Positions 20,439 through 44,246 of a DNA stretch of 64,000 nucleotides are shown here, in pieces. The DNA comes from Candidatus Zixiibacteriota bacterium (lineage in GTDB: Bacteria > Zixibacteria > MSB-5A5 > GN15 > FEB-12): assembly GCA_028289585.1 (NCBI GenBank), contig JANQPI010000010.1:124001-188000 (forward strand), written 5' to 3'. The first letter of the stretch is position 1. Each line of letters begins with the position of its first letter. A program made the position numbers and the translations under genes. A model generated the notes under the pieces. It was not told the DNA's origin. It saw only the letters and a list, made by a program, of their open reading frames with translations, and ran no database searches.

Positions 20439-20477
20439 GTCGAAACTCCCGGACTAGCGGGTGTGTCAGTTCGTTCC

Positions 20478-21278
20478 CTAGCCGAATCGGCCGGTAATGT
20501 AGTCCTCGGTCCGCTTCTCCTGCGGATTAGTAAATATCTGCGTTGTTTCTCCGGCTTCAACCATTTTCCCCTCGTAGAAGAAAGCGGTCTTGTCCGACAC
20601 GCGCCCGGCCTGCTGCATGTTGTGGGTAACGATGATGATTGTGTAGCTCCCCTTAAGTTCAGCAATCAGGTCCTCAATCTTGGTCGTGGATATCGGATCG
20701 AGCGCTGAGGCCGGTTCGTCCATGAGCAACACTTCCGGTCGGACCGCCAGGGCGCGGGCGATACAGAGCCGCTGCTGCTGTCCCCCCGACAACATGTACG
20801 CGGAGTGACTCAGCTTGTCCTTAACCTCGTCCCAGAGAAACGCCTTCTTGAGCGTGTCCTCAACGGCATGGGTGATTATCTGGCGATCTTTGATGCCGTT
20901 GACTCTCAGGCCGTAGGCGACATTGTCGAAAATCGACTTCGGGAACGGATTGGACTTCTGGAAAACCATGCCGACCCGCGTACGAAGCTGCGAAACGTCG
21001 CCGAACCCATTGTAGATATCGCGATCGTCTAGACGCACCGTTCCCGTCATTCGCGTGCCGGGAATCGTTTCATTCATTCGATTCAGGCACCGAAGAAACG
21101 TGGACTTACCGCACCCGGAAGGTCCGATCAGCGCCGTCACCTTCCCCTTACCCATCGACAGCGTAACATCACGCAGAGCGTGATTGTCTCCATACCAGAA
21201 ATCAACCGTCTCCGCGGTAATCTTGATATGCGTCGAGGTGCGCGGCGGTGCGGATGGGGGCGTGGTCATATCTGTCAT
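20478..21278 (-). CDS. pstB: Phosphate ABC importer ATPase PstB
   Basis: 266 aa. Walker [10 protein letters not shown] at residues 52-60 followed by [10 protein letters not shown], a PstB-specific run. Signature [15 protein letters not shown], Walker B VLLMDEP with ASALDP, and the H-loop in IIVTHNM are all intact. It powers high-affinity phosphate import through PstA/PstC. It follows pstA by 21 bases and precedes phoU in the usual pstSCAB-phoU order. Confidence 0.97.
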
Positions 21279-21299
21279 GAATTGCTACCGTAATCGAGG

Positions 21300-22268
21300 T
21301 TAATCGGCAACTCGTCGCGATCGCATTCGCGATCGAATAAAGATCGCCGTGAAATTCAACAGGAACGTCAGCACAAGTAACGTCAGAACCGTTCCGTACA
21401 GAATTGGTTTCGTTTTGTCAATGTCCGGAGCCTGAGTCGCCAGAATGTATACATGGTACCCCAGCTCCATGAACTGATGATTCAATTGTGTGGGCAGATA
21501 GGGCAGGTAGTACGCGGCCCCGGTAAACAGAATCGGTGCGACTTCGCCAGCGCCGCGGCTGACCGCCAGAATTCCACCGGTCAGAATCCCCGGCAATGCC
21601 TGTGGGATGATAATCCGGAGGATCGTCTGTAACTTCGTTGCTCCAAGCGCATAACTTGCCTCGCGGAGCTCCCGTGGGATAGCCCTCAGGGCCTCCTCGG
21701 TTGAGACGATGACAACCGGCAGGGTGAGCAACGCCAGCGTGAGAGAGGCCCAGATAATCGCTGGCTGACCCCAGTACGGGCGGTCGTCAGCGATAACAAA
21801 GACGCTATCGAGAAAGCCCCCAACAAAGGAGATGAAGAACCCCAGTCCGAAGAGACCGAAGACGATCGACGGCACTCCCGCGAGGTTGTTGATCGAGATC
21901 CGAATCGCACGGGTGATCATCGAATCAGGTCGTGTGTACTCGTGCAGGTAGATTGCGGTGAGTACACCAATCGGCACAACCGCAATGACCATCAGGAAGA
22001 CGAGTGCTACCGTACCGAAGATCGCCGGGAAGATTCCTCCCTCTTCGAGACCGTGAGCTGGCGACTGAGAAATGAACTCCCAACTGATGACACCGATACC
22101 ACCCAGGAAGATATTGCCCAGAATAACGGCGAGAATAGCGGCGATGAGCAGGACCGAAAGCAGCGTCAGTGATTTGGGGATGATGCCCTGCGACTTCTTG
22201 CGGTCACCGATATTGTTGAGGACCTGATTGATCTGCTCGGTGGCCAGGACCGTTGTGCCGTTGCCCAT
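21300..22268 (-). CDS. pstA: Phosphate ABC importer permease PstA
   Basis: 322 aa. Six predicted membrane helices after a cytoplasmic N-terminus of about 35 residues. The binding-protein-dependent transport motif (EALRAIPRELREASYALGAT) near residue 190 contacts PstB, and INNLAGVPSIVFGLFGLGF is PstA-typical. Its start overlaps the pstC stop as TGATG, so translation of the two permeases is probably coupled. With PstC it forms the phosphate channel. Confidence 0.96.
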   Translation of the reverse strand: MGNGTTVLATEQINQVLNNIGDRKKSQGIIPKSLTLLSVLLIAAILAVILGNIFLGGIGVISWEFISQSPAHGLEEGGIFPAIFGTVALVFLMVIAVVPIGVLTAIYLHEYTRPDSMITRAIRISINNLAGVPSIVFGLFGLGFFISFVGGFLDSVFVIADDRPYWGQPAIIWASLTLALLTLPVVIVSTEEALRAIPRELREASYALGATKLQTILRIIIPQALPGILTGGILAVSRGAGEVAPILFTGAAYYLPYLPTQLNHQFMELGYHVYILATQAPDIDKTKPILYGTVLTLLVLTFLLNFTAIFIRSRMRSRRVAD

Positions 22269-23242
22269 CAGGTCACCTTCCCCTGAATCCGTTCCTTGAT
22301 CCGGCGGAGAATGAGATCGCCGCCCAGATTAATGATGAACGTGAAGATGAAGAGTAGTGTCCCAATGAAGAACAGAACGTTGTAGTGTGTCGAGCCGACC
22401 ACGACCTCACCCATCTCCGATGCAATGGTGGCCGACATCGTTCGTATCGAATCAAAGAGACTGGCTGTCGTAAGCGGCGCATTTCCGGACGCCATCAGCA
22501 CGATCATTGTTTCACCGATGGCTCGCCCAAAGCCAAGGACCACACCGGCAGCAATGCCCGGTAGTGCGGCCGGCAACACCATGGTCATCGATACCTGCCA
22601 TTTATTGGCACCAACGGCAAGGGCCGCCTGCCGCAGTGATTGCGGGATCGACGTCATCGCGTCCTCGGCTACGGTGAAGACGATTGGGATTACGGCAAGG
22701 CCGAGCGCGACTCCCGCGACGAACGCGTTGAGCCGGTACGTGAAGCCGAAGACTTCTCGGAAGACCGTCGCCATCACGATGAGCGCGAAGAATCCGAGGA
22801 CCACCGACGGGATGCCGGCAAGGATTTCAATGATCGGCTTTATGAACTCACGCCATCGCTTTGATGCGAATTCCGAGGAATAAATCGCAGCGCCAACGGC
22901 AAGGGGTACGGCAAAGAGCATTGCAATGACGGCCGCCTTAATCGATCCAAGGACGAGGGGCATGAGCGAAAACTTCGGCTGCCGCGAATTGGGAGCCCAC
23001 GACCAGAGCGGATCGCGCCCCTCGCGAAACTCCTGCTTAAACACCATTTTATCGAGCGAAGCGGTCTCCTGGACCGCTTCGGACGTGAAGATCGGAATGG
23101 CTTCTTTGAAGATGAAGACGAAGATCAGAAAGATACCGATCAGGGCCGTGAAAGCACTGACACGAATGATTCCCGAACCGATTCCCTCAAAGAGTTTCGA
23201 TTTCGGTTTGAACGGGAGCGTACCCTGATTCGAATCTGTCAT
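22268..23242 (-). CDS. pstC: Phosphate ABC importer permease PstC
   Basis: 324 aa, six membrane helices. A periplasmic insert lies after the first helix (about 50-90), and the coupling motif EDAMTSIPQSLRQAALAVGA sits near 195-214. IKPIIEILAGIPSVVLGFFAL is typical of PstC. It lies 15 bases after pstS and overlaps pstA. Functions with PstA as the transmembrane pore. Confidence 0.96.
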   Translation of the reverse strand: MTDSNQGTLPFKPKSKLFEGIGSGIIRVSAFTALIGIFLIFVFIFKEAIPIFTSEAVQETASLDKMVFKQEFREGRDPLWSWAPNSRQPKFSLMPLVLGSIKAAVIAMLFAVPLAVGAAIYSSEFASKRWREFIKPIIEILAGIPSVVLGFFALIVMATVFREVFGFTYRLNAFVAGVALGLAVIPIVFTVAEDAMTSIPQSLRQAALAVGANKWQVSMTMVLPAALPGIAAGVVLGFGRAIGETMIVLMASGNAPLTTASLFDSIRTMSATIASEMGEVVVGSTHYNVLFFIGTLLFIFTFIINLGGDLILRRIKERIQGKVT

Positions 23243-23257
23243 CGCCAGTAACCGACA

Positions 23258-24121
23258 TCAGTCGGTAATTAGGTTCGCCTGTGCGTCTTCCGGGTGAAGC
23301 GGGACGTAGTCCGTTTCGCGAGCGATCGTCTGACCTTCCTCCGAGAGAACCCAATTGACAAGTTCTTTGATCATCCCGTTCGGCTTGCCATTCGTGTACC
23401 AGAAAAGCGGCCGGGAAATTGGGTACGTTCCCTCCGAGATCGATTCGAACGTCGGGTCGACTGGCTCATCGTCGGCTGTGTACGCCACCATCAGATGACG
23501 AATCGATTCACCGTATGCGATCCCTCCGTAGCCAATGCCATTCGGGTCTTGTGAGACCGCATTGACGACCGCAGCGGTGCCGGGGAGTGACTGAGTTCGC
23601 GGATCGAAATCTTCGTCGTCGAGCACTTTCTCGCGGAAGTACATGAACGTTCCGGAGTTGTTCTCGCGGCTGTAGAGAATGATCGGCTCATCCGGGCCAC
23701 CGATTTCCGACCAGTTGGTGATGTAACCGGTATAGATGTCACGCAAATCGGTCAGTGTGATCGTCTCGATGGGATTCGAGTTGTGGACAAAGACCGCGAT
23801 GCCATCGAGCGCCACGGCGACCTCGAAGACGTCAATGCCACGCTCCTTGGCAAGCTCGTACTCTTCCTCATGAAAGGGGCGAGAGGCCTCGCAGATGTCA
23901 GTTGTGCCGTTGAGTAGCGAGGCGATACCGCGACCGGAGCCGCCTCCGGAGACTTGAATAATAACGTCATCATGCCGCTTCATGAACTCCTCGGCCCATC
24001 GTTGACCGAGCCGAACCAGAGTATCCGAGCCGGTGATCGTGATCCTAACCGGTGTATCACTCTGAAGGGTCGTGGCGGCGAAAATGGTGACAAGCGCGAG
24101 AACAGCAAGTCGCTTGAACAT
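23258..24121 (-). CDS. pstS: Periplasmic phosphate-binding protein PstS
   Basis: 287 aa. Signal peptide about 1-20 without a lipobox cysteine, so the mature protein should be soluble in the periplasm. Phosphate-contact motifs of the family are visible: ITGSDT near 29-34, SGGGSGRGI near 57-65 and RENNSGTF near 145-152. ATG 24121 is preceded by AAGGAG at good spacing. It is first in the pst operon and has its own 147-base upstream gap, consistent with a promoter there. It delivers phosphate to PstCAB. Confidence 0.96.
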   Translation of the reverse strand: MFKRLAVLALVTIFAATTLQSDTPVRITITGSDTLVRLGQRWAEEFMKRHDDVIIQVSGGGSGRGIASLLNGTTDICEASRPFHEEEYELAKERGIDVFEVAVALDGIAVFVHNSNPIETITLTDLRDIYTGYITNWSEIGGPDEPIILYSRENNSGTFMYFREKVLDDEDFDPRTQSLPGTAAVVNAVSQDPNGIGYGGIAYGESIRHLMVAYTADDEPVDPTFESISEGTYPISRPLFWYTNGKPNGMIKELVNWVLSEEGQTIARETDYVPLHPEDAQANLITD

Positions 24122-24268
24122 CCGAAACTCCTTACTTGTGGTGGGATTGGGAGGTGGTCATATGTTTCTCGTAGTGATACACCTGCCGGTTCTTCCGCAC
24201 CCATGCGAAAGTGCTGTGCGACAACGGGTCCCCCAACCGGAAATTTGTTAGGAATCCGTTAGCGGAGG
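24122..24268 (-). promoter_or_regulatory. Probable promoter region of pstSCAB-phoU
   Basis: This 147-base gap separates the phoR stop from pstS, all on the minus strand. An AAGGAG ribosome site for pstS is clear near its end. I could not find a convincing pair of PhoB half-sites of the E. coli type, nor a clear minus-10/minus-35 pair; a lineage-specific operator may exist. Calling it a promoter rests on the gap and gene order. Confidence 0.45.
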
Positions 24269-26068
24269 TTACGACGCCTGTCGGCGAACCGCCAGAGGAA
24301 GTCGAATCGAAAATGAAGTGCCGACCTCGGGGCCGCTTTCCACGGTAACCGCACCGCGGTGCGCCAGGGCGATATGCTTCACAATCGCGAGTCCCAGTCC
24401 GGTACCACCCGATTCCCGGCTGCGTCCCTTGTCGACCCGGTAAAAGCGCTCGAAGATACGTTCCCGATGCTCTTCGGGGATTCCGGGTCCGCGGTCCGAG
24501 ACCGAAATCGTTAGAAAATGCCCATCGCGACGGCTCGTGATGCGAACGATGGAATCCTCGGGTCCGTACTTGATCGCATTGTCGATTAGATTGACCAGCG
24601 CCTGCTGAAGCAGCGAGGGGTTCATGGGTATGGTCGTCTGTTCGTCGTCAAAATCGCATTCCAGGACCACGTTGCGCTCCGCCGCCATATCAGCCCGTTC
24701 GCGTACCGCACCGCGACAGACTTCGGCGACCGAACCGGGACTGAGGTCGATTTGTGCGCGCTCGACTCGCTGTTCGATACGAGACAGGGACAGCAAATCC
24801 TCAATAATGGCGTTAAGCCGATCGACTTGCCGGGCGATGACCCCCAGGAATCGTCGCTGATCCTCCGGCGAGTCAATCCCGCCGTCGATGATCGTTTCCA
24901 GGTAGCCTTTGACCGACGTTAAGGGGGTCCGCAACTCGTGCGATACGTTAGCAACGAATTCGCGACGAACGTTTTCCAGTCGCCGGATTCGGGTCACGTC
25001 ATTAAAGACCAATACCACACCCAGGGGTTTGCTCTCGGAATCCAGAAGTGGCGATCCGTGGGCCTGCAAAAAGATCTCTTCCCGACGCGGCGTCGTCATC
25101 ACGATCTCCTCCTCGACAGGTCCTGTCGAACCACGCGTCTTTTCCAGAAGCCGCAGGAGCTGGCTGTTTCGTACCACCTCGTGGATCGGTCGTCCGAGAG
25201 CCTGTTCGGGACGAACGTTGAGGAGCGTTCCGGCAGTACGGTTGAGATTGATTAGCCGGTCTCCGCCATCAACCGCGACGACGCCTTCGATCATCGAGGC
25301 AAGGATCGCTTCCTGTTCGTTGCGTTGCTGAGTGACAATCCGAATCCGATCGGCCAGCTCCGCGGACATGAAGTTAATCGCTTCGGCCAACGAACCGATC
25401 TCCTCAGAATCGGCCACCGGAAGCCGGTAGGTGAGATCACCTTTGGCAACGAGCGCTGCCCCCTGGCGAATCAACTCAAGGGGGCGGGCCAGCCGACGGG
25501 CCACATAGAGTGATACGAGCGATACAAGCAGAATCATTCCAACCGAACCAAGGCCGAGCTGCCAATAGACCTGACTCATCGATTGTTCGATAGCGGTGGT
25601 TTCGACTCCCGCTCGAATAACACCGATCAATCCCTGATCATCGCCAATGGGCAGTGCACAATAGATCATGCGTTTGCCGACGATTGGGTCGCGCCGACTC
25701 TCGACGCCAACAGCGCCACCGAGGGCGGTGATGATTTCCGGCATATCGGCGAGTCGCGGTAGTTCGCTCGGCGCGCCGCCCGAGAAGCCGACCGGCCGTC
25801 CTGAGCGGGTCATGATGACAATCTGATAGCCGGTCAATTCGCCGACTACCGCAGCCAGTGAATCTGCGGTTGGGGGGTCGATCGTGCGGCTTTCGTCGGT
25901 CAATAACTCGCGCAGCACGGCGGCTTGTCGTTCGAGTCCGATTGCGGCCTGGCGTTCGAGCACCCGTTCGACCGACCCGGCTGCAAAGAGACCGACCACC
26001 AACAGCGAAACGAGGGCGATGATCAGATAGGTTGGGTAGAGCTGCCAGACAAGGCGAGGGCGAGCCAT
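24269..26068 (-). CDS. phoR: PhoR-like sensor histidine kinase
   Basis: 599 aa. A first membrane helix near 10-30, a periplasmic/extracytoplasmic sensor of about 130 residues, a second helix near 165-185 (IGMILLVSLVSLYVA), HAMP (about 188-240), PAS (about 258-370, ILASMIEGVVAVD), HisKA with phospho-acceptor His377 in NVSHELRTPL, and a HATPase domain (N-box NLIDNAIKYG, G-box GTGLGLAIVKH). It follows its response regulator by three bases and precedes pstS, so it is most likely the phosphate-limitation sensor. It is longer than E. coli PhoR because of the extracytoplasmic domain, as in Gram-positive PhoR; the ligand cannot be told. Confidence 0.92.
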   Translation of the reverse strand: MARPRLVWQLYPTYLIIALVSLLVVGLFAAGSVERVLERQAAIGLERQAAVLRELLTDESRTIDPPTADSLAAVVGELTGYQIVIMTRSGRPVGFSGGAPSELPRLADMPEIITALGGAVGVESRRDPIVGKRMIYCALPIGDDQGLIGVIRAGVETTAIEQSMSQVYWQLGLGSVGMILLVSLVSLYVARRLARPLELIRQGAALVAKGDLTYRLPVADSEEIGSLAEAINFMSAELADRIRIVTQQRNEQEAILASMIEGVVAVDGGDRLINLNRTAGTLLNVRPEQALGRPIHEVVRNSQLLRLLEKTRGSTGPVEEEIVMTTPRREEIFLQAHGSPLLDSESKPLGVVLVFNDVTRIRRLENVRREFVANVSHELRTPLTSVKGYLETIIDGGIDSPEDQRRFLGVIARQVDRLNAIIEDLLSLSRIEQRVERAQIDLSPGSVAEVCRGAVRERADMAAERNVVLECDFDDEQTTIPMNPSLLQQALVNLIDNAIKYGPEDSIVRITSRRDGHFLTISVSDRGPGIPEEHRERIFERFYRVDKGRSRESGGTGLGLAIVKHIALAHRGAVTVESGPEVGTSFSIRLPLAVRRQAS

Positions 26069-26071
26069 GGG

Positions 26072-26758
26072 CTAGTCCCGAAAGCGGTAACCGACTCCCC
26101 GGACGGTTTCGATACGACTTCCTGCCGGGCCGAGTTTCTTCCGCAGACCGACGACCTGAACGTCGACCGAACGATCGGTCACGACCGCATCTGATCCCCG
26201 GACGGCATTGACAATCTGATAGCGGGTAAAGACCCAGCCCGGACGGCGAGCCAGGGTGTGGAGCAGCCGAAACTCGGTATTGGTCAGCTGCACCTCCTCG
26301 CCATTGACCCGCACTTCGCGCCGCCCCGGATCAATCTGCAAATCGCTAAAGACCAGGACCCTGTCGTCGGAATCACCATTCTCGTGATTTCGGCGCAGCA
26401 CCGCCTTGACACGAGCGAGGAGAACGCGCGGGGAGAACGGTTTGGTGACGTAATCGTCGGCACCCAATTCAAGTCCGGCGACGATGTCCGATTCCTCCTC
26501 GCGGGCGGAAACGATGATCACCGGAATAGCGCTGGTCGCTGTGTTACGTTGGAGGGAACGGCAGATATCAAGACCGCTCAGGCCCGGGAGCATGAGATCG
26601 AGGACGATCAGATCAGGGGCGACCGAATTGATCTGCTCCAGCGCCGACTCTCCGTCGCTGGCAATATCTACCCGATAGCCGTCCCGCTCCAGATGATGCC
26701 GGACCAGCTCGCGAATATCAGCTTCGTCTTCAACGACCAGGATTCGTTCTTGACTCAT
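26072..26758 (-). CDS. phoB: PhoB-like OmpR-family response regulator (first of two)
   Basis: 228 aa. Receiver domain with acidic pocket near 11-12 and phospho-acceptor Asp54 (IVLDLMLPG), Thr/Ser switch in VIIVSARE and Lys in YVTKPFSP. A linker precedes a winged-helix OmpR/PhoB DNA-binding domain (about 130-228; VQLTNTEFRLLHTLARRPGWVF). It directly precedes phoR with a three-base gap, so this copy is the likely cognate partner of the kinase. A closely similar regulator lies 134 bases upstream on the same strand. Confidence 0.92.
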   Translation of the reverse strand: MSQERILVVEDEADIRELVRHHLERDGYRVDIASDGESALEQINSVAPDLIVLDLMLPGLSGLDICRSLQRNTATSAIPVIIVSAREEESDIVAGLELGADDYVTKPFSPRVLLARVKAVLRRNHENGDSDDRVLVFSDLQIDPGRREVRVNGEEVQLTNTEFRLLHTLARRPGWVFTRYQIVNAVRGSDAVVTDRSVDVQVVGLRKKLGPAGSRIETVRGVGYRFRD

Positions 26759-26892
26759 GCGTCGGGAGAAATATCACAACCTGCCCAGCGGCAAGAAGCC
26801 CCCCCGAACGCAATCTGTCAATCGTCAAAATCGGTCGTACCCTTTAGGACTATGACGGAGAATGGGCGAGAATGAACTGGATTATAGTCGGA

Positions 26893-27591
26893 TTACGGTT
26901 GTTCGCGGAACCGGTAGCCGACACCGCGAACGGTCTCGATGTATCGACCGAATTCACCGAGTTTGCGACGAAGACCGACGATATGGACATCGACCGATCG
27001 ATCGGTCACGACGATATCGTCGCCGCGAACCCCCGAAACGATCTGGTAGCGGGTGAACACCCATCCCGGCGACCGAGCTAGGAAATGCAGGATCCGAAAT
27101 TCGGTAAGTGAGAGATCAACAGTTTCGCCGTTGGCCTTCACTTCAAATCGGCCAGGGTGGATCTCCAACTTGTGGACGGTGAGCGGAGGGGTGTCATGGA
27201 CCGGCTCACCATTGCGACGTCTCAGCATGGCCCGGATTTTAGCCGCCAGGACTTTGGGTGAGAACGGCTTATTGACGTAATCATCTGCCCCAATTTCCAG
27301 CCCGGTAACCATGTCGACTTCTTCGGTTCGCGCGGTCACCATGATTACCGGGATCGCGTTGGTGGACGTATCCTGTTTGAGGAGGCGACAGACTTCCAAG
27401 CCGTCCATGCCGGGCAGCATCAGGTCGAGAAGGATCAGTCGGGGCGGTTGCGATCGGGCTGCGGTGAGTCCCTCCTCACCCGTGCGGCAGAGGCGGACCT
27501 GATAGCCCTCCTTGAGTAGATTAAACCGAATCAGTTCCTGAATATCCGGTTCATCCTCAATGACCAGAATCGCTTCGTTGCCCGCGCTCAC
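26893..27591 (-). CDS. PhoB-like OmpR-family response regulator (second, paralogous)
   Basis: 232 aa. Receiver with Asp56 (LILLDLMLPGMDG), MVTARTEE and YVNKPFSP; winged-helix domain at about 135-232 (VDLSLTEFRILHFLARSPGWVF). Overall it is very similar to the neighbouring PhoB-like protein, and both end in ETVRGVGYRFR. The start is GTG 27591, preceded by GGAGGT. It is the first minus-strand gene of the phosphate block and is divergent from the TonB receptor. Only one kinase lies nearby, so this copy either shares PhoR, has a distant kinase, or tunes the response; the sequence does not decide. Confidence 0.9.
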   Translation of the reverse strand: MSAGNEAILVIEDEPDIQELIRFNLLKEGYQVRLCRTGEEGLTAARSQPPRLILLDLMLPGMDGLEVCRLLKQDTSTNAIPVIMVTARTEEVDMVTGLEIGADDYVNKPFSPKVLAAKIRAMLRRRNGEPVHDTPPLTVHKLEIHPGRFEVKANGETVDLSLTEFRILHFLARSPGWVFTRYQIVSGVRGDDIVVTDRSVDVHIVGLRRKLGEFGRYIETVRGVGYRFREQP

Positions 27592-30881: not shown

Positions 30882-31103
30882 GAAATGACGAGACCCCGGT
30901 CTCACCCCCGTACTTAGTGCGTGGTGGGAAATCGCGAGAGCCACACAGCGACGACCACTGCCTTAGTAATAGTTCCAATCCTTTAGAGACGACTGGACAC
31001 CTGTGCACAGAGGAGATGACGAGAGAGGTACGATCCACTGGAGTCACTACCGATCACAAACGGTAGCAACCGTATGTGTAAACAACTTGGAGGTAATCCT
31101 AGA
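30882..31103 (+). promoter_or_regulatory. Leader region of the triplicated surface-protein gene
   Basis: No gene seen. It holds the short palindrome GAGACC-CC-GGTCTC near 30889-30902 and the hairpin CTACCG (31047-31052)/CGGTAG (31061-31066). A strong ribosome site GGAGGT (31089-31094) sits nine bases before ATG 31104. No known riboswitch class was recognised. A separate promoter is likely but not identified. Confidence 0.4.
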
Positions 31104-35639: not shown

Positions 35640-35675
35640 GGCCGGCTACCTTCGGGTAGCCGGCCACTTTGTTGT
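35640..35675 (+). terminator. Intrinsic terminator with a TTCG tetraloop
   Basis: An 11-bp perfect stem, GGCCGGCTACC (35640-35650) with GGTAGCCGGCC (35655-35665), closed by a TTCG tetraloop and followed by ACTTTGTTGTT. It ends transcription of the surface-protein gene and separates it from the GAK operon 80 bases on. Confidence 0.85.
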
Positions 35676-35755: not shown

Positions 35756-36922
35756 ATGACGCTGCCGTCAATTGATCAGAGTGCCGAGCGCCTTGGTAAG
35801 CAGCTTGAGGGGATGGAGCGGGAGCTAACTGATACCGATCAGGAGCGCTACCGTCGTGCGACATCCATTCGGCTAACCGACGATCAATTGGCCAAGCTGA
35901 CCGACCCCCCTCAGACTTTCCCGCAGCAGAAGGCGATTCTCGGTATTCACTGGCATCCCGAGTTTGTGCCGATCGAGACCTGTCTGGTCCGCATTGATCG
36001 CACGTTTCCGAATCATGAGCGAGCGCTGATCATCCCAACACAGCACAACGTTGTGAATGAAATCGATGGTTATGCCGGCGTGGAAATTGATTGTTATGCA
36101 CCGGAGTTTAATCGCAAGGTACAGTTCCTGGCGCACTTCCGGTCCGAGACGATTCGCAATGCCGATGTCTTTCACAAGATGCTTGAGCACACGTATCGCT
36201 ACCGCCAGAGCCAACTCTTTGAATACATCGACTCGATCCTCGATTCCCGCTTCGATGACCGAGTGGCGCTTGCTGCCCGCGAGACTGGTGTTTCACCCGA
36301 GGTTGTCACGTTCGTTCGCCATCATGTCGACAAAATCAAGCGCTTGATTGAGGCGAATCACGATGAGACGCCTCCTGAGATGCTCCGGAACAAGCTGCTT
36401 CGCAACTACTTCGACCTTTTGCGCGAAAACTACGACGACGCCTCCATCAATCTCTCGCAGTCGTTTCTGAAGGCGATGAAGGAGATCGTAAAGGCTCGTT
36501 TCGAGCTGGCCTACTTCTATACCGCTCGTGAGTTCATTGAGGAGATTCGTTCTCTCGGCGGCGGAATCATTGTGCCTCATCCCGAACAGTTCTGGCCGGT
36601 CTTGCTATGTGATTGGGATGTCGATGGCTACGAGGTCTGGAATCCCCAGTCTCAGGAGTTCACTGAATTCCTCGTCGAGGTCGTGAGTCGACAGAACAAA
36701 CAGGGACGCCCGTCCCATCGCCGTCTGTTGGTAACGATGGGCGATGACTGCCACATGGGAGAGAAGGTCAAGGAAACGCACCTTCAAGACTTTGAAAAAG
36801 CTCGGCGAGAGGTCGGTGTCCAGCCAGCCTGGGATCACCTTTCGATTCGCAAGACTCTCCTCGCCGCTAACTTTGACCGGCTCACCGTAATTGAGGAGTA
36901 TGCTGCCCGCCTTGGCGAGTAG
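35756..36922 (+). CDS. PHP-like metal-dependent hydrolase, first gene of the GAK operon
   Basis: 388 aa. Putative metal-binding motifs in PHP-domain order: His65-x-His67 (GIHWHPEF), His275 (IVPHPEQFW), Glu293 (DGYEVWNP) and Asp330-Asp331-x-His333 (TMGDDCHMG). The PHP superfamily comprises phosphoesterases and related amidohydrolase-like metal enzymes (histidinol phosphatase, polymerase proofreading domains). A mostly helical insert lies between about 110 and 260. No signal peptide, so cytoplasmic. ATG 35756 follows GAAAGGA (35742-35748). It is 13 bases upstream of the amphi-Trp gene, so it belongs to the operon. The family assignment rests on motif spacing only; substrate unknown, though a phosphoester would suit the surroundings. 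Confidence 0.65.
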   Translation: MTLPSIDQSAERLGKQLEGMERELTDTDQERYRRATSIRLTDDQLAKLTDPPQTFPQQKAILGIHWHPEFVPIETCLVRIDRTFPNHERALIIPTQHNVVNEIDGYAGVEIDCYAPEFNRKVQFLAHFRSETIRNADVFHKMLEHTYRYRQSQLFEYIDSILDSRFDDRVALAARETGVSPEVVTFVRHHVDKIKRLIEANHDETPPEMLRNKLLRNYFDLLRENYDDASINLSQSFLKAMKEIVKARFELAYFYTAREFIEEIRSLGGGIIVPHPEQFWPVLLCDWDVDGYEVWNPQSQEFTEFLVEVVSRQNKQGRPSHRRLLVTMGDDCHMGEKVKETHLQDFEKARREVGVQPAWDHLSIRKTLLAANFDRLTVIEEYAARLGE

Positions 36923-36935
36923 GAGGAGAACGACC

Positions 36936-37223
36936 ATGGCTAGTCAGAAATCCGATTTTCGCCACGAATCACTACAAGATCGACAGACGATCGTCCGCTA
37001 CCTCAACGCCCTCTCCGAGGGAATTGCCTCGGGCCGTCTGGTCTTGGGCACTCGCGAAGAGGAAATCGTTCTTGAGCCAGAAGGATTATTGAAACTCGAT
37101 GTGAAGGCTCGTCAGAAGAGCGATGAAGCGAAAGTTACCTTCAAGATCAGTTGGAAGTCCAACGGACACGGTGACAGCCCGATCAAAGGGCCGCTCTCCA
37201 TCAGCTCCGAAAAGGCGGACTAA
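36936..37223 (+). CDS. Amphi-Trp domain protein, first copy
   Basis: 95 aa. It matches the amphi-Trp pattern: an amphipathic helix (TIVRYLNALSEGIASGRL), a short beta region (EIVLEPEGLLKLDVKAR) and the conserved Trp in FKISWKSN. No catalytic residue is apparent. ATG 36936 is preceded by AGGAGGA (36921-36927). This small domain is known as a recurrent companion in GAK gene clusters; its role is unassigned to my knowledge. A second copy ends the operon (42171-42515). It could be a small binding or carrier protein (inference). Confidence 0.8.
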   Translation: MASQKSDFRHESLQDRQTIVRYLNALSEGIASGRLVLGTREEEIVLEPEGLLKLDVKARQKSDEAKVTFKISWKSNGHGDSPIKGPLSISSEKAD

Positions 37224-37233
37224 CTAACCACCT

Positions 37234-38886
37234 ATGCGCCAATTGCTATCGGTCGAGGGGTTGGAAGATAACTTCCGATTCCTCGTCATGGAGGTCTCCA
37301 AGCAGCTCGCCGAAACCGAACGTCGACTTGCCGAGCCGTCGGAAGTATCGATCGACGCGGTTATCAGCCGCGATGATTTCATCGACAATCTCAAGGCCAC
37401 GATTGAGACCAAGGCATACGCTTCGATCCGGGATCTGGATAACGACGATCAACAGACGATCAATCGGATCCGGGCTGTCAATACGATCACCAGCAATCTC
37501 GAGCGCCTTGCCGACTTCGCTGTCAATATCGTCTCCCAGACCGAATACCTGCGCGATCCCGCATTCATTCGGCGCTACGACTACCCTGCATACTTCCGCG
37601 TTATTGGCGACGCTGTTGATTTGATCGAGCCAGCCCTGCTCGATCTCAATATTGCCCAGGCGCTCAAGATCTGTCGGACCGAGTTCCGCCTGGACAACAT
37701 GTACAAGCACAGCTTCGACCATATTCTTGCAGAGCTGCGCACCGGTCGGGATACCGAAAACCTGGTCACGTCGCTCTTCATCATCCGCTATTTCGAGCGC
37801 ATGGGCGATGCTCTCCTCAATATCGGTGAGGCGATTATCTCTGCGGCCCTTGGTGAGAAGCTCAAGATTGACCAGTACGAGGCTCTCGAAGAGTCGCTGG
37901 AGGCGGCTGATCTCGGATCGGATATGAGTGACATGACGCTCGATGCGATTTGGGAAACGAAGTCCGGTTGTCGCATCGGGCGTCTGCGCGACCATTCCGG
38001 GATGTCTCGAACGGGGCGCGGCGTAATCTTCAAAGATGGTCGTGCGGCCAAGCTGCGTGCCGAGAAGGAAAGCATCGACCGGTGGAACGCACTTATCCCG
38101 GGACTGACGCCGCGCGTCCTCGACTTTCATGAACGTGGTGCCGATGCTACCATCCTCCTGGAAAACCTACCCGCGCGGACGTTTCAGGAGTATCTGCTCG
38201 ATCGTGATTCGAATCTCTTCGAAACGGCATTCGAGACGTTGCTCTCAACCCTTGGTTCGATTTGGAACGATACGCGGAGCGACGAGCCATCGGCGGCCCG
38301 GTTTGTCCGTCAGTTGCAACGTCGCATTGAGGATGTCTATAAGGTTCATCCAGAATTCCAACGTCGGGAATCTTCGATTGGTTCGCTGGAGTCGCCATCG
38401 TTTGACGCGATGTTAGAACGCGCGGCCGCTCTCGATGATCAGCTCGTATCGCCATTCAGTGTGCTGGTCCATGGGGACTTCAATATCGACAACGTGATGT
38501 ACGATGCCGAGAAGCAGCAAATCTACCTGATCGATCTGCATCGATCCCGTCAGTTCGACTACTGTCAGGATATCTCCGTCTTTCTCGTTTCCATCTTTCG
38601 GCAACCGATCTTCGAGCCCGAGTTGCGGCGCCGAATCAACGGTGTGGCACTTCGCTTTCTGGAGTGGTCACGTGAATTTGCAGTGACGAATAAAGACACG
38701 TCGTTTGAGGCACGTCTTACTGTCGGATTGGTTCGATCCATGATGACCTCGACACGATTCCAGCTTCATTACAAGTTTGCGAATGCCATGTATTTGCGCG
38801 CGGTTTTCTTGCTTGAGAAGCTGATTGCGCGCGAGTCACGTGACTGGGCAACGTTCCGGTTGCCCGACGATGTTCTGATTTACTAG
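37234..38886 (+). CDS. PhoU-domain / aminoglycoside-phosphotransferase-like kinase fusion
   Basis: 550 aa. Residues about 1-215 are two PhoU-type helical bundles (NTITSNLERLADFAVNI near 86-102 and IIRYFERMGDALLNIGEAI near 185-203). A linker leads to a kinase-like domain (about 245-550) with the APH/choline-kinase catalytic loop His413-Gly-Asp415-Phe-Asn-Ile-Asp-Asn420 and the metal-binding Asp434 in LIDLHRS. An N-lobe Lys is plausible in GRAAKLRAEKE. Both halves appear intact. PhoU domains report phosphate-transporter state; APH-like enzymes phosphorylate small molecules or proteins. This suggests a kinase governed by a PhoU-like sensor (inference). It lies ten bases after the first amphi-Trp gene and 12 before the ATP-grasp gene. 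Confidence 0.85.
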   Translation: MRQLLSVEGLEDNFRFLVMEVSKQLAETERRLAEPSEVSIDAVISRDDFIDNLKATIETKAYASIRDLDNDDQQTINRIRAVNTITSNLERLADFAVNIVSQTEYLRDPAFIRRYDYPAYFRVIGDAVDLIEPALLDLNIAQALKICRTEFRLDNMYKHSFDHILAELRTGRDTENLVTSLFIIRYFERMGDALLNIGEAIISAALGEKLKIDQYEALEESLEAADLGSDMSDMTLDAIWETKSGCRIGRLRDHSGMSRTGRGVIFKDGRAAKLRAEKESIDRWNALIPGLTPRVLDFHERGADATILLENLPARTFQEYLLDRDSNLFETAFETLLSTLGSIWNDTRSDEPSAARFVRQLQRRIEDVYKVHPEFQRRESSIGSLESPSFDAMLERAAALDDQLVSPFSVLVHGDFNIDNVMYDAEKQQIYLIDLHRSRQFDYCQDISVFLVSIFRQPIFEPELRRRINGVALRFLEWSREFAVTNKDTSFEARLTVGLVRSMMTSTRFQLHYKFANAMYLRAVFLLEKLIARESRDWATFRLPDDVLIY

Positions 38887-38898
38887 AAACAGGGGCCT

Positions 38899-39789
38899 AT
38901 GAGTTCGCGTTCAGATGTTCGTGTTGGAGTTATCGGTTTGCCCGGAGGGAAGTCGTCGGAGGCACTGGCCGATGCTGTGGCGAATCTTACCGGGGAACGT
39001 CTGCTCATTGATATCAGTGAAGTCGCCGTCGACTTCGCCCAGGGGACAGCCTCTTGGGGAGATGTCGCCCTCAACGAACTTGATGCCGTTGTGGTGAAGA
39101 AGGTCGGTCCTCATTACTCTCCCGATCTGCTCGATCGGTTAGAGCTCCTGCGTTGGCTGGAGGGGCGTGATGTTCGTGTCTTTTCACCGCCGCGGGGTAT
39201 GCAGATGGCTCTCGATCGGTTGAGTGGGACCGTTACGCTGCAGAACGGCGGGATTCCGATGCCCGATACCGTTGTTACGGAGTCGGTCGACGCCGCGGTG
39301 GCGACGGTTGAACGCTTTGGCGAAGCGATTTTCAAACCGTTCTATTCGACCAAGGCCCGTGGGATGCAGCTCCTGACGCCCGGACCTGAACTGCGTGATC
39401 GGATTATTGCCTTTCAGACGTCCGGCAACCCACTGATGTATATCCAGCGTAAGGTCGAGGTTCCTGGTCGTGACCTCGGCGTTGTCTTCCTGGGGGGGGA
39501 GTATGTCGGTACCTACGCCCGTGTCCAGCAGGGGGAATCGTGGAATACGACGATCCACGACGGCGGCAAATACGAATGTTTTCAGCCATCGGAACAAGTC
39601 ATCGAACTTGCCCATTCTGCTCAAGCGTTATTCGGATTGACGTTCACATCTGTCGATGTTGTCGAAACAGACACCGGACCGCTGGTCTTTGAAGTCTCAG
39701 CATTTGGAGGATTTTCCGGTCTCACCTCGTGTGGTATCGATGCCGCTGCGCGATACGCTGATTATGTCATTAAACAGGTGTCGTCATGA
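38899..39789 (+). CDS. GAK-system ATP-grasp enzyme
   Basis: 296 aa, RimK-like ATP-grasp fold. The N-terminal 90 residues form the first domain. An ATP-binding Lys is in FKPFYSTKARGM (about 137-148), the substrate/ATP region is LMYIQRKVEVPGRDLGVVFL (about 180-199), and the metal-binding end reads DVVETDTGPLVFEVSAFGGF (about 252-271). ATP-grasp enzymes join a carboxylate to an amine or thiol via an acyl-phosphate, for example in peptide tagging or cofactor polyglutamylation. Its ATGA overlap with the HprK-related kinase gene means the two are co-translated. This matches the GAK-system ATP-grasp family; the substrate is unknown. Confidence 0.85.
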   Translation: MSSRSDVRVGVIGLPGGKSSEALADAVANLTGERLLIDISEVAVDFAQGTASWGDVALNELDAVVVKKVGPHYSPDLLDRLELLRWLEGRDVRVFSPPRGMQMALDRLSGTVTLQNGGIPMPDTVVTESVDAAVATVERFGEAIFKPFYSTKARGMQLLTPGPELRDRIIAFQTSGNPLMYIQRKVEVPGRDLGVVFLGGEYVGTYARVQQGESWNTTIHDGGKYECFQPSEQVIELAHSAQALFGLTFTSVDVVETDTGPLVFEVSAFGGFSGLTSCGIDAAARYADYVIKQVSS

Positions 39790-40892
39790 CCGGCGTGTGC
39801 GAGCTGACTCTGGCCGACGTGACGGCATCGTATTCACTCGCTGTGGCCGAGCCATCGTTACATCTTGACTTCGCGGGCTGTCACGTTGCTGTCCAATCAC
39901 CCGAAACTGATATCATTCAGCACCTTACAGAGTACTACCGACCGTTTGTCGCGGCCTCAGAGACCAAACCCGATGTTGTCGTTCACGTCTTAGAACAGCC
40001 GTCGCCGGTCTTCGATCTTTCGTTTACGACCAAACCTCCCGATCGAGGGAAGACGAAGATTAAAGAAGAGTATGTCGATCTTGTTGACGGCCGAATCGTC
40101 CGCAAGCGTCTGACAGGTTTGGTCTTGATTTTCGGCAACGATCTCAATCTTTGTGTCGGTCCGGCGCGTGCGAACCTCAACCAAGTTGTTAACTTCATCA
40201 ATCATCGCCACATCCAGTGGCAGCTGGATGCCGAGGGATTACTCGCTCACGCGGCAGGCGTTCGAATCAATGAGACCGGGTTAGCTATGGCCGGAATGTC
40301 CGGCGCCGGAAAATCGACGCTGGCGTTGAAGTTGCTCACCCGAGGTGCTGATTTCGTTTCGAATGATCGTCTCATCCTCAGGCGTCGAGATAACGTGTTG
40401 ATGATGGGGGGCGTTGCGAAGTATCCGCGCATCAATCCGGGAACGATTCTCGGCAATCAGTTCTTGTCGCCGTTGCTTACGGAGGCTGATCGAGTTCGTT
40501 ACGAGTCGTTGGATGACGATGACTTATGGGAGCTTGAGGAAAAATACGATGTGCCCGTTTCCAAACTCTTTGGTGCAGACCGACTTCTTCTCGAAGCACC
40601 CGTATCCGCTATCGTGTTGCTGCGATGGCAACGTGGAGCGGGTGAGCTGAGCATTCGTCGGACGACTGCTATCGAAGTTCCTGAGGTAATCGAACCACTG
40701 ATGAAAGAGCGCGGGCTGTTCTATCTTATCCCCGGTCAGTATGGTCCCGCCCCCCTTGTTGCCGCCAACGAGTATGTGCGGCTGTTGGGTCCGACACCGT
40801 TAATTCTTCTTGAGGGTGGCGTCGCATTTGACGAAGCGGCCGAACGACTGTATTCTTACTGCCACGGAGGGGTCGACATTCAGTCGCTCTGA
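39786..40892 (+). CDS. HprK-related kinase B
   Basis: 368 aa. An N-terminal domain of about 150 residues precedes a P-loop kinase core: Walker A Gly170-MSGAGKST (Lys176), then FVSNDRLILRR (about 192-202) and the HPr kinase signature-like KYPRINPGTIL (about 215-225). HprK phosphorylates a serine on the sugar-transport protein HPr, but HprK-related A/B families occur without HPr and have other, unknown targets. No HPr gene is near. The start overlaps the ATP-grasp stop (ATGA), and the CofD-like gene starts four bases after its stop. It is a core GAK member. Confidence 0.85.
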   Translation: MTGVCELTLADVTASYSLAVAEPSLHLDFAGCHVAVQSPETDIIQHLTEYYRPFVAASETKPDVVVHVLEQPSPVFDLSFTTKPPDRGKTKIKEEYVDLVDGRIVRKRLTGLVLIFGNDLNLCVGPARANLNQVVNFINHRHIQWQLDAEGLLAHAAGVRINETGLAMAGMSGAGKSTLALKLLTRGADFVSNDRLILRRRDNVLMMGGVAKYPRINPGTILGNQFLSPLLTEADRVRYESLDDDDLWELEEKYDVPVSKLFGADRLLLEAPVSAIVLLRWQRGAGELSIRRTTAIEVPEVIEPLMKERGLFYLIPGQYGPAPLVAANEYVRLLGPTPLILLEGGVAFDEAAERLYSYCHGGVDIQSL

Positions 40893-40896
40893 TTGC

Positions 40897-42108
40897 ATGC
40901 CTGAAAACCAATCGCACGTTGTCAGGATCACGCGACCCGTTACGATTCCAGATCGCAAGCGGTTGTCGCGCTATCAGCAGGTGCCGGACCTCGGTCCGCG
41001 CATCCTCTTTTTCTCCGGTGGTAACGCACTGCGTGAGACCTGCCGCCAGCTGATTCGCTATACGTTCAACACGATTCATCTGGTCACTCCGTTTGACTCG
41101 GGGGGGAGCTCAGCGAAGCTGCGGGAAGCGTTTGCCATGCTGTCGGTCGGCGATTTGCGCAATCGACTAATGGCCTTGGCCGATCCGGGTGTGTTGGGCA
41201 ACCAGGATATCTACCATCTTTTCGCGCATCGTTTCCCAGACGATGAATCACCGGTTGATCTTCTACTCGAGTTAGAACGGATGATTGCTGGCGAACATCG
41301 TTTAGTGGCCGTAGTCGCTGACCCCATGCGGAAAGTCATTCGCAATCATCTGCGCTTCTTCCGAGAGGCAATGCCGGAAACGTTCGATCTGCGGGGAGCA
41401 TCAATTGGCAACCTGATTCTCACTGGCGGGTACTTGAACAATGATCGCTCGGTGGAAACCGTGAGCTTCATGTTTTCCCGGCTCGTTGAAGTGCGTGGCT
41501 TGGTTCGACCAACGATCAATGCTGACGCGCATTTAGCGGTTACCCTTGCCGACGGAAGCGAAATCGTGGGGCAGCATCTGATCACCGGCAAAAATGGAAT
41601 CGGTCAGATCACGAAGCCGATTCGATCAGTTCGTCTCGTTTCCGATCTCGATGAGCCCCAGGTGACGACGCTGACGGCGAGTCCGAGTATTCGCGAACAG
41701 ATCGACGACGCGGAAATGATTGTGTATCCGATCGGCTCGTTCTATTCAAGTCTGATTTCGAATCTCCTGATTGGTGGCATCGGTCAGTCGGTAGCGGGCA
41801 ATCCCGCACCCAAACTGTTTATTCCGAATACCGGCGTCGATCCCGAAATGCTCGGGCTGTCGGTTGCCGAGGCAGTCGAGCAATTGCTGGTTTTTCTGCA
41901 GCGTGACCAGTCCACCGTGATTCCGAATGATCGGTTGCTGAATTATGTCCTGGTCGACAGCCGTAACGGGTCTTATCCGACCGGACTCGATCTCGATGCG
42001 ATCGCCCAGATGAACGTGGAAGTTGTTGATACGTCATTAGTTTCGTCCGAATCCGCACCTCGGCTTGACCCCGCATTGCTCGCCCAGGCGCTCGTTTCCC
42101 TCGCCTAG
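40897..42108 (+). CDS. CofD-like protein of the GAK system
   Basis: 403 aa from ATG 40897, four bases after the kinase stop; a longer in-frame extension back to 40810 would overlap the kinase gene heavily and is unlikely. CofD/YvcK-family motifs are clear: ILFFSGGNALRE (about 30-41) and LVTPFDSGGSSAKLREAFAMLSVGDLRNRL (about 59-88), then ASIGNLILTGGYL (about 170-182) and IVYPIGSFYSSL (about 278-289). CofD transfers phospho-lactate to a deazaflavin to make coenzyme F420; YvcK-like relatives bind UDP-sugars. The GAK version is a separate branch with no known substrate. No other F420 biosynthesis gene is in the window. Confidence 0.85.
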   Translation: MPENQSHVVRITRPVTIPDRKRLSRYQQVPDLGPRILFFSGGNALRETCRQLIRYTFNTIHLVTPFDSGGSSAKLREAFAMLSVGDLRNRLMALADPGVLGNQDIYHLFAHRFPDDESPVDLLLELERMIAGEHRLVAVVADPMRKVIRNHLRFFREAMPETFDLRGASIGNLILTGGYLNNDRSVETVSFMFSRLVEVRGLVRPTINADAHLAVTLADGSEIVGQHLITGKNGIGQITKPIRSVRLVSDLDEPQVTTLTASPSIREQIDDAEMIVYPIGSFYSSLISNLLIGGIGQSVAGNPAPKLFIPNTGVDPEMLGLSVAEAVEQLLVFLQRDQSTVIPNDRLLNYVLVDSRNGSYPTGLDLDAIAQMNVEVVDTSLVSSESAPRLDPALLAQALVSLA

Positions 42109-42170
42109 GTCTCTTGACAGGGGAACGCGAGTAATACACATTGTGGAAAAGTCTGGAAAGGAAGGGCATC

Positions 42171-42515
42171 ATGTCCAAAAATGAGCTGAGTCTCAAAGGG
42201 ACGGTCGATCTTGAACGGGCGATCGGGTACCTTGAAGACCTCATCGCCTCGCTGAAAGCTGGGACGGTGCATATTCAGCAAGGGGATAAGGGGCTGACGA
42301 TTCATCCTCGCGATGTCGTCGATCTGGAAGTCGAAGTGGAACAGAAAAAGGCCAAGGAGAAATTCACGCTCGAGCTGGCCTGGCGCAATGGTGTCACAAC
42401 TCCTACCGAGAACGATCTCGTTATTACTTCGGAAGCTCCCGAGGAACCGGTTTCGGAAGAGGATGAGGCTGAGATGGACGCCGAAGTGGGTGAATTGGCA
42501 GAAGCCAAAGAGTAA
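42171..42515 (+). CDS. Amphi-Trp domain protein, second copy, with acidic tail
   Basis: 114 aa. The amphi-Trp core (VDLERAIGYLEDLIASLKAG, then LTIHPRDVVDLEVEVEQKK and FTLELAWRNG with the conserved Trp) spans about 1-85. The last 30 residues are very acidic (SEAPEEPVSEEDEAEMDA...), a tail missing in the first copy. ATG 42171 follows AAGGAAGG; an in-frame start at 42141 is less likely. It closes the GAK operon, 62 bases after the CofD-like gene and directly before a strong terminator. The acidic tail suggests a binding function (inference). Confidence 0.8.
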   Translation: MSKNELSLKGTVDLERAIGYLEDLIASLKAGTVHIQQGDKGLTIHPRDVVDLEVEVEQKKAKEKFTLELAWRNGVTTPTENDLVITSEAPEEPVSEEDEAEMDAEVGELAEAKE

Positions 42516-42541
42516 GCGGTCCAGCAACAGAGTTTACTAAG

Positions 42542-42575
42542 CCGGCATCACCGTATTTGATGTCGGTTTTTTTTT
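42542..42575 (+). terminator. Intrinsic terminator of the GAK operon
   Basis: A nine-bp stem, CCGGCATCA (42542-42550) with TGATGTCGG (42558-42566), one G-T pair, seven-base loop, then nine T residues (42567-42575). The GGAGGA ribosome site of the phosphatase gene starts at the very next base, so any phosphatase message must either begin upstream and read through, or start within the terminator. Confidence 0.92.
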
Positions 42576-42590
42576 GGAGGAACGGGCGCA

Positions 42591-44246
42591 GTGAAACGGA
42601 TGTCTCGCGGGATTGGTGTCATCGTTGCAGCGATCGTCGTTGGATCGTGCGGTCAAACGCAACAAACAGATCAACCGAAAGTCATTATCTCACTCGTCGT
42701 CGATCAACTGCGGCCCGACTTCCTCACTCGATTCTATGATCACTTTGCTCCCGACGGTGGTCTTCGTCGACTCGTTGACCACGGGAGTGTTTTCCTTAAC
42801 GCTTACCACGCTCATGCCGTAACGGCAACTGCGCTTGGGCATGCTTCGGTTGCCACCGGAGCCCATCCGCGTACCCATGGAATTACCGGAAACTCATTCT
42901 GGTATGCTCCCGCGGTTGAGTTTCGCTATGCGGCCGGCGATCCGGCTCATCCGGTCATTGGCTATCCGGCGGCACAGCCGATCTCGCCTGCCAACCTCCA
43001 GGTGACTGCACTCAGTGATTGGATGAAGGATGCTGATCCGACCAGTCTTGCCTATGCGGTGGCAATCAAAGATCGCGCCGCATCCATGTCAGCAGGGCAG
43101 CGCCCCGACGGAGCCTACTGGTACATCGGTGGTACCGGTGAGTTTGCGACGTCAACCTACTATGAGGCCGCCCTCCCAGACTGGCTTGACCGGTTCAATA
43201 CCTCGCAGATCTCCGGTCTGTGGCGTGACTCCGTCTGGTCGAAAATTGGCTCTCCAGAGGCGTACGGTGATTGTCGTGCGGATTCGTTTGTCTATGAAAA
43301 CGATGGCATCCATGTCACGTTTCCCCACACCGAGCATATGAATGCCGATACCGGTCGGACAGCCTACAGCCGACTGATTCGGGTATCGCCATTTGGCGAC
43401 ATGCTGACGCTAACGCTCGCTGAGTCTCTTCTGGTGAATACCGAGCTGGGGCAGGACAAGGTGGCCGACTATCTGTCGGTCTGTCTGTCGAGTGCCGACT
43501 ACACCGGTCATGCCTATGGCCCTTACAGCCATGAGATTGCCGACTATTACCTGCGGCTCGATATCCGTCTCGGTCAGTTCTTCTCGTTCCTCGATGAACG
43601 CTTTGGGGAGGACGGGTGGTGGCTTGTTCTTAGCTCGGATCACGGTGTCTTGCCACTTCCGGAGGAGCTCGCCGCACGTGGGGAATCGGGGGTGCGCATC
43701 TCAAGTGACTCGTCTGCACAGGAGATCATGAGCGTTTTGGATACGATCGATTTTGGTCCGGACGGCGGCCGGTGGGTTCCCTATACGTTCGCCGGCTCTG
43801 CTGGAATCGCCCTCGACCGCGATTCCCTGGCCGCCGCCGGGATCGCACCCGATAGGGTCCGGTCGCGCTATGCGGCGGCGATTCGCTCGCTCCCGTATGT
43901 GGCCGACGTGTTCACGGTCGACGAACTTCGCGATCGCTCCGCCGCGGATCGACCGTTGGGTGAGCTCTTTGTGAACAACTATTACCCGGACCGCACAGCC
44001 GACCTGATCATTGCCTGGCAGCCGGGTGTTCTTGTTACCTCTTGGCGGCAGGGCACCAACCACGGCTCACCACACCGATACGATACCGATATACCGATTG
44101 TCTTCTACGGCTCCGCCTTTCCGGCCGAGCGGAGAAGCGACCGAATTCGATCGGTCGATATTGCACCAACCCTGGCCGGTCTGCTGGGCATTGATCTGCC
44201 CGAGTCGGTAGACGGAGTAGCTGTTGGCTTCGAAACCGCACCGTAA
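42591..44246 (+). CDS. PafA-like alkaline phosphatase lipoprotein
   Basis: 551 aa. A lipoprotein signal is likely (VVGSC, lipidated Cys20). The fold is alkaline phosphatase/nucleotide pyrophosphatase: metal ligand region LVVDQLRPD (Asp38), nucleophile Thr80 by alignment with the TxxGH pattern (TATALGHAS), LSSADYTGHAYGPYS near 300 with metal ligands, SSDHG near 347 and NHGSPHRYD near 480. A Thr rather than Ser nucleophile is typical of the PafA group, which is secreted and works even when phosphate is plentiful. GTG 42591 lies nine bases after GGAGGA. It would release phosphate from external phosphomonoesters, fitting the surrounding phosphate genes. Confidence 0.88.
   Translation: MKRMSRGIGVIVAAIVVGSCGQTQQTDQPKVIISLVVDQLRPDFLTRFYDHFAPDGGLRRLVDHGSVFLNAYHAHAVTATALGHASVATGAHPRTHGITGNSFWYAPAVEFRYAAGDPAHPVIGYPAAQPISPANLQVTALSDWMKDADPTSLAYAVAIKDRAASMSAGQRPDGAYWYIGGTGEFATSTYYEAALPDWLDRFNTSQISGLWRDSVWSKIGSPEAYGDCRADSFVYENDGIHVTFPHTEHMNADTGRTAYSRLIRVSPFGDMLTLTLAESLLVNTELGQDKVADYLSVCLSSADYTGHAYGPYSHEIADYYLRLDIRLGQFFSFLDERFGEDGWWLVLSSDHGVLPLPEELAARGESGVRISSDSSAQEIMSVLDTIDFGPDGGRWVPYTFAGSAGIALDRDSLAAAGIAPDRVRSRYAAAIRSLPYVADVFTVDELRDRSAADRPLGELFVNNYYPDRTADLIIAWQPGVLVTSWRQGTNHGSPHRYDTDIPIVFYGSAFPAERRSDRIRSVDIAPTLAGLLGIDLPESVDGVAVGFETAP

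Follow-up and report, generated by a model that had tools for sequence, protein, structure and literature searches.

The stretch of DNA analysed here (the window; 64,000 nucleotides, positions 124,001 to 188,000 of contig JANQPI010000010.1) belongs to a Candidatus Zixiibacteriota bacterium with a genome of 3.15 Mb and contains an operon of seven forward-strand genes, g1–g7, that encodes a GAK system (window 35756–42515). The intergenic gaps, counted from g1 to g7, are 13, 10, 12, −4 (an ATGA overlap), 4 and 62 bases, in agreement with the common direction, close spacing and two contacts described in a first-pass annotation made from the sequence alone; the clear terminator that it placed at the operon end is well formed, and a second intrinsic terminator sets the operon apart from the preceding gene. 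Terminator-like sites in the pattern scan as a whole showed no excess over shuffled sequences, and the case for these two rests on both stems being the longest in the scan and on their placement at the operon borders. Flanked in this way, the seven GAK genes look like one transcription unit (Table 1).

Table 1. Coordinates of the GAK operon, its bordering terminators and the phosphate-related genes around it (positions in the window)
Feature	Position	Strand	Basis or remarks
phoU-pstB-pstA-pstC-pstS-PhoR-like kinase-two PhoB-like regulators	19767..27591	-	Context; phosphate regulon
Intrinsic terminator, upstream	35640..35665	+	11 pairs, 9 GC, TTCG loop, z -4.2; putative 5' border of transcription unit
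g1, predicted PHP-family metallophosphoesterase, 388 aa, helical insert about 137-250	35756..36922	+	Fold and metal ligands
g2, amphi-Trp protein type A, S[LV]QD motif	36936..37223	+	TIGR04354 75 bits (cut-off 31)
g3, PhoU domain fused to APH/EcKL-type kinase, 550 aa	37234..38886	+	PhoU, EcKL and APH matches
g4, GAK ATP-grasp enzyme, RimK/LysX/MptN-like	38899..39789	+	TIGR04356 405 bits (cut-off 300); RimK and LysX structures
g5, HprK-related kinase B	39786..40892	+	TIGR04355 397 bits (cut-off 200)
g6, GAK CofD-like protein, YvcK/GlmR-type	40897..42108	+	TIGR04357 495 bits (cut-off 340)
g7, amphi-Trp protein type B, lysine-rich strands, acidic C-terminal tail	42171..42515	+	TIGR04354 69 bits (cut-off 31)
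Intrinsic terminator, downstream	42539..42569	+	Well formed; 12-pair stem, then T run
PafA/PhoY-like phosphatase (Type I phosphodiesterase family)	42591..44246	+	NF042991 379 bits (under 650 cut-off); PF01663 110 bits

Profile searches clearly indicate that the four named GAK protein types, namely the ATP-grasp enzyme, the amphi-Trp proteins, HprK-related kinase B (HprK_B) and the CofD-like protein (CofD-GAK), all pass the NCBIfam curated cut-offs, as the annotation had proposed, and their genes are adjacent; judged from these matches, the locus is a complete GAK system, of a kind already named in NCBIfam, with uncharacterised function. The same family names (TIGR04354–TIGR04358) are used by RefSeq on Rhodobacterales plasmids. 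No publication on the GAK system was found in the literature searched, which left subscription journals largely outside, and prior work is possible. Besides the two amphi-Trp proteins, the remaining five of the seven proteins belong, by their predicted domains, to families of enzymes acting on phosphoryl or nucleotidyl groups, including the ligase-type ATP-grasp enzyme and the two kinases that the annotation had recognised.

A scan of one genome per species gave 428 CofD-GAK relatives from several bacterial phyla, and 65 loci remained after those retrieved had been clustered at 80% by their CofD proteins. The genes of the kinase, the ATP-grasp enzyme and HprK_B follow in that order at 44 of the 45 non-redundant loci having all three, and the full order PHP–kinase–ATP-grasp–HprK_B–CofD is found at 34 of those 45; the gene order is conserved far beyond chance. 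Within the phylum of the window, CofD-GAK is above its cut-off in 7 of 132 genomes and the GAK ATP-grasp enzyme in 8, with seven genomes in common and the eighth cut by a contig end, which indicates that the system is patchy in the phylum and occurs as a block. The proteins were not placed in ordinary RimK, HprK or CofD families, and the co-occurrence and conserved order anticipated by the annotation were found; its interpretation stood as to the complete GAK system and its order, and missed the PHP nature of g1, the PhoU domain of g3 and the phosphate uptake and phosphatase genes in the surroundings.

The protein encoded by g3 consists of PhoU repeats followed by the APH/EcKL kinase domain. 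The PhoU domain scores 60.4 bits against the Pfam gathering score of 23.5, and the relatives with solved structures are PhoU and AphA1. The protein lies under the phoU_full equivalog cut-off (65 vs 130 bits), which makes it a PhoU-domain kinase and not PhoU itself; the repeats are shared with PhoU, but the kinase fusion is not, and most of these genomes additionally encode an ordinary PhoU. The kinase residues K267, E277, H413-G-D415, N420 and D434 show little or no variation, and for this reason the kinase is predicted to be one that should be active.

For g1, no NCBIfam match and no Pfam match above the family cut-off was found. The residues conserved with 34 relatives, and also in a 41-row alignment (H65, H67, H97, E110, H127, H275, D330/D331 and H333), form the motifs HxH, H, E, H, HP and DDxH, invariant or nearly so in 35–41 sequences, in an order which we take to be the PHP metal-ligand pattern. 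VIA comparison of the AlphaFold2 model (predicted local distance difference test 92.9) gave PHP enzymes in all five best rows (Z 14.7–15.8, root-mean-square deviation (rmsd) 2.7–3.6, 178–244 aligned residues); the scores were Z 15.8 for 3o0f (rmsd 3.6, 244 aligned), 15.5 for RNase AM (9etk) and 14.7 for 2yb1, which contains bound AMP and phosphate. By its modelled fold and metal ligands g1 is a predicted PHP phosphoesterase, an assignment of the fold and not of the substrate. It has this fold and ligand pattern in common with RNase AM and other PHP phosphoesterases, but differs from them in giving no match in a sequence search against the PDB, in its large helical insert and in its operon context.

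The phosphoesterase slot is filled in two ways. At 46 non-redundant loci with the kinase and the ATP-grasp enzyme, a PHP protein only is found at 36, a calcineurin-type phosphoesterase only at 7, both at 0 and neither at 3; of the last three, L011 has the PHP gene on another contig, L040 is cut by the locus end and L080 is truly without either. Two unrelated folds in one slot indicate that phosphoester hydrolysis belongs to the GAK system, and are strong evidence for it. The PhoU-kinase and the PHP or calcineurin-type phosphoesterase are as constant as the NCBIfam-named GAK members, yet are omitted from the family names; this broader definition of the GAK core, together with a functional direction, is what is added here. 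The GAK locus at L080:4835-10564, the sole exception to the phosphoesterase-slot rule, is intact.

Other lineages show how far the set may vary. In Gammaproteobacteria and on Rhodobacterales plasmids the operons are without g1, CofD is divergent when present, and a calcineurin-type phosphoesterase, histidine phosphatases and Nudix enzymes are added; a search of plasmids for g1 found none. The Rhodobacterales operons L117, L118 and L120 are located on large plasmids, by which they may be transferred and which might serve as a laboratory system. Two gammaproteobacterial loci (L112 and L115) contain nothing but the kinase, the ATP-grasp enzyme, the phosphoesterase and an amphi-Trp protein, and HprK_B and CofD are add-ons within these loci, to which the search was confined. 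HprK_B above the cut-off is absent in 6 of 24 CofD-GAK genomes, and CofD-GAK is found alone, with no other GAK genes within 9 kb, at L022, L024, L036, L044, L046, L075, L084, L087 and L092; since some genomes with a lone CofD-GAK are entirely without HprK_B, CofD-GAK might also function independently. At L014:3874-6213 (the same record as L071), HprK_B and CofD-GAK form one frame of 779 amino acids, a possible fusion that is doubtful because it occurs in one metagenome genome only and a stop may have been lost by assembly error. No viral contigs with CofD-GAK were confirmed.

The amphi-Trp proteins, which the annotation suggested might be carriers or regulators, fall into two types with different motifs. 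Type A precedes the kinase, or stands last in the gammaproteobacterial operon, and carries the S[LV]QD motif (S and Q in 50/52 proteins each, D in 52/52); type B follows CofD and has lysine-rich strands and long, flexible tails that are acidic or rich in Lys, Ala and Pro. The Trp is conserved in 52/52 type A proteins and in 45/47 of the remaining amphi-Trp proteins. The type A model contains one helix and four strands, and no convincing PDB match to it was found (Foldseek E ≥ 0.8, VIA Z ≤ 2.4), which does not make the fold new. In Desulfovibrio relatives, type B proteins carry histone-H1-like Lys/Ala/Pro tails (L032:10189-10815, L020:10206-10766 and L078:10212-10655). The conserved motif, the presence of an amphi-Trp protein in every core variant, the flexible type B tails and the His, P-loop and Asp retained in HprK_B are all consistent with the main rival explanation, a protein-modification relay in which HprK_B or the PhoU-kinase would phosphorylate the Ser of S[LV]QD, the ATP-grasp enzyme would extend amphi-Trp proteins by amino acids, in the manner of RimK on S6, and the proteins so modified would work like HPr/Crh. 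However, the motif (residues 12–15) directly precedes the helix (16–32) and its S..D may be a helix cap, the minimal loci do without HprK_B, and the sequences of the type B tails are not conserved; we consider such a relay possible but doubtful.

The remaining three enzymes are also recognisable relatives of known proteins with departures of their own. The GAK ATP-grasp enzyme shares the entire ATP-grasp domain with RimK/LysX/MptN ligases (secondary NCBIfam scores: MptN 140 bits, RimK family 115, CofF 38), but the RimK-type E-x-N metal motif is absent, being E265-V-S267 in g4 and E-x-S throughout the alignments. HprK_B has the core His, P-loop and Asp in common with HPr kinase/phosphorylase (H155, P-loop 170–178 and D194 are conserved in g5, and the P-loop core matches HprK); unlike in that enzyme, the match extends over only about 56 residues, the remainder including the N-terminal region is unmatched, and g5 is far under the hpr-ser cut-off (TIGR00679, 32 vs 240 bits). 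The structure matches of g6 at E ≤ 0.01 are YvcK/UPF0052 chains only, and its second-ranked NCBIfam match is the YvcK model TIGR01826; the alignment of CofD-GAK with 2ppv, 2o2z and 2hzb spans most of YvcK, but CofD-GAK has DSGGSS, with an invariant Ser, in place of DDGGSS, a longer N-terminus and one insert. In its profile and structure matches, the "CofD-like" protein resembles YvcK/GlmR and not CofD.

These matches bear on two further explanations. A pathway of the cofactor F420 type, with a CofD-like transfer and ATP-grasp capping, is suggested by the family names and by the MptN and CofF scores of the ATP-grasp enzyme. But the YvcK-only structure matches speak against it, as do the minimal loci without CofD-GAK, and the F420 enzyme CofE is absent from genome G000 and 34 others, i.e., from 35 of the 37 GAK genomes tested and present in 2; the phosphotransferase-like role of the CofD protein suggested in the annotation is unsupported as far as phospholactyl transfer is concerned. 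The F420-like pathway was rejected on the structure matches and the CofE count, and we regard it as highly improbable. The resemblance to GlmR raises, instead, the possibility of an envelope regulator, a GlmR-like protein sensing or making a uridine diphosphate (UDP) sugar and tuned by the kinases, as YvcK/GlmR in Firmicutes. GlmR is a uridyltransferase, and its D40/D41/N198 triple mutant is about 100-fold less active (PMC10128056); it also binds UDP-GlcNAc (PMC5482804). Two of the three mutated residues, D40 and N198, align to the conserved D67 and N289 of CofD-GAK, but D41 is replaced by the invariant Ser68, no UDP-sugar genes recur in the GAK neighbourhood and CofD-GAK is dispensable for the core, which leaves a function of this kind improbable.

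The gene neighbourhood points to phosphate. In 6 of 26 genomes a standalone PhoU is encoded no more than 10 kb from the GAK PhoU-kinase, against 0.16 expected from genome sizes and copy numbers (P about 2e-8), and at L023, L029, L035, L055 and L073 the pst/phoU genes are located head-to-tail before the GAK operon in the same direction. The pst-phoBR cluster of the window lies 8 kb upstream of the operon and holds the genome's only standalone PhoU, and the gene of the PafA-like phosphatase comes directly after the operon. On an Alloyangia plasmid, an orphan CofD-GAK with a Nudix gene stands beside PhoX, an inositol monophosphatase and a ugp-type transporter. The linkage of GAK and phosphate genes is well above chance, and the GAK system is probably connected with phosphate.

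Phosphatases of other families also gather near GAK genes. Among neighbours within 2.6 kb, 11/131 proteins are His_Phos_1 and 10/131 NUDIX; for 122 genes located farther away, the top 25 include neither of the two. A fusion of a SixA-like histidine phosphatase and a Nudix domain (L041:3746-4705 and relatives) was observed as well. In one family the SixA-Nudix fusion is encoded in 6 of 116 genomes, beside the ATP-grasp gene and always within the 17 genomes positive for the GAK ATP-grasp enzyme (hypergeometric about 4e-6). The Nudix, SixA-like and CHAD-family neighbours of the gammaproteobacterial operons, along with the lysine-rich type B proteins, might be taken to mean that GAK makes, binds or meters inorganic polyphosphate, but 29 of 37 GAK genomes are without PPK1, including all seven of the window's phylum, and such a module seems quite improbable. 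PPK1 is rare across that phylum as a whole (4/132 genomes: G060, G098, G125 and G131), and for this reason no anticorrelation with GAK is claimed; PPK1-made polyphosphate is not needed and the PPK1-dependent version is unlikely, polyphosphate by another route still being compatible.

We propose that the GAK operon serves phosphate homeostasis, as a module by which a putative phosphorylated product is made and taken away again, a proposal that we hold to be evenly poised; given the phosphate link, a small-molecule product is somewhat favoured. The PhoU domain would couple the kinase to phosphate status, probably via contact with the PstB/PhoU/PhoR machinery, and the PhoU-kinase would phosphorylate a small acceptor. 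The ATP-grasp enzyme would then activate a carboxylate and join an amine to it, or add a further phosphate, while HprK_B and the GlmR-like protein, where present, may perform a regulatory phosphorylation or a nucleotide or sugar-nucleotide step. Removal of the product might be the task of the PHP or calcineurin-type phosphoesterase, with SixA-like, Nudix and histidine phosphatases as helpers in other lineages, and the amphi-Trp proteins may be non-catalytic partners, serving as scaffold, receptor or substrate.

Several results weigh against this proposal. The PhoU linkage was noticed before it was tested, and its P value is thus somewhat optimistic, with the excess still large; pst genes occur within 9 kb at only 8 of 64 non-redundant loci, which means that the linkage is enriched and not universal. 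Pho boxes upstream of GAK operons numbered 4 against 1.9 expected in 60 regions, with none in the window, and were rejected as evidence for a phosphate link. The enrichment of phosphatases near GAK genes is partly due to one operon type. Finally, the third metal ligand of the GAK ATP-grasp enzyme has changed from Asn to an invariant Ser, and ordinary ligase chemistry is therefore not assured.

If the phosphate link holds, a named but functionless set of enzymes would gain a place in phosphate physiology that can be tested, and a new metabolite may come with it; the wider core, with its exchangeable phosphoesterase and PhoU-kinase, shows which genes to delete and where the product should build up. 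In a bolder and rather unlikely version of the phosphate-homeostasis proposal, the PhoU-controlled kinase and the ATP-grasp enzyme would make a new soluble compound of phosphorus, either as a reserve or as a second messenger of phosphate status, and the phosphoesterases of the PHP and calcineurin types, along with the SixA-like and Nudix enzymes, would degrade it. In eukaryotic inositol-pyrophosphate signalling, a kinase of the ATP-grasp type acts together with a histidine-phosphatase domain and with Nudix hydrolases, and a GAK system of this kind would, by analogy, be a bacterial counterpart in logic.

Between the pst-phoBR cluster and the GAK operon, the window also encodes a secreted-looking protein of 1502 amino acids (31074–35582) with three long repeats (GFVYVEDGE...GNPGQGAGATALIVARGG) and no Pfam match. 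It has a dockerin-like C-terminus, in which GDVNCDGSVGLPDLSTLIDHLF occurs twice, and comes after a TonB-dependent receptor (27904–30810).

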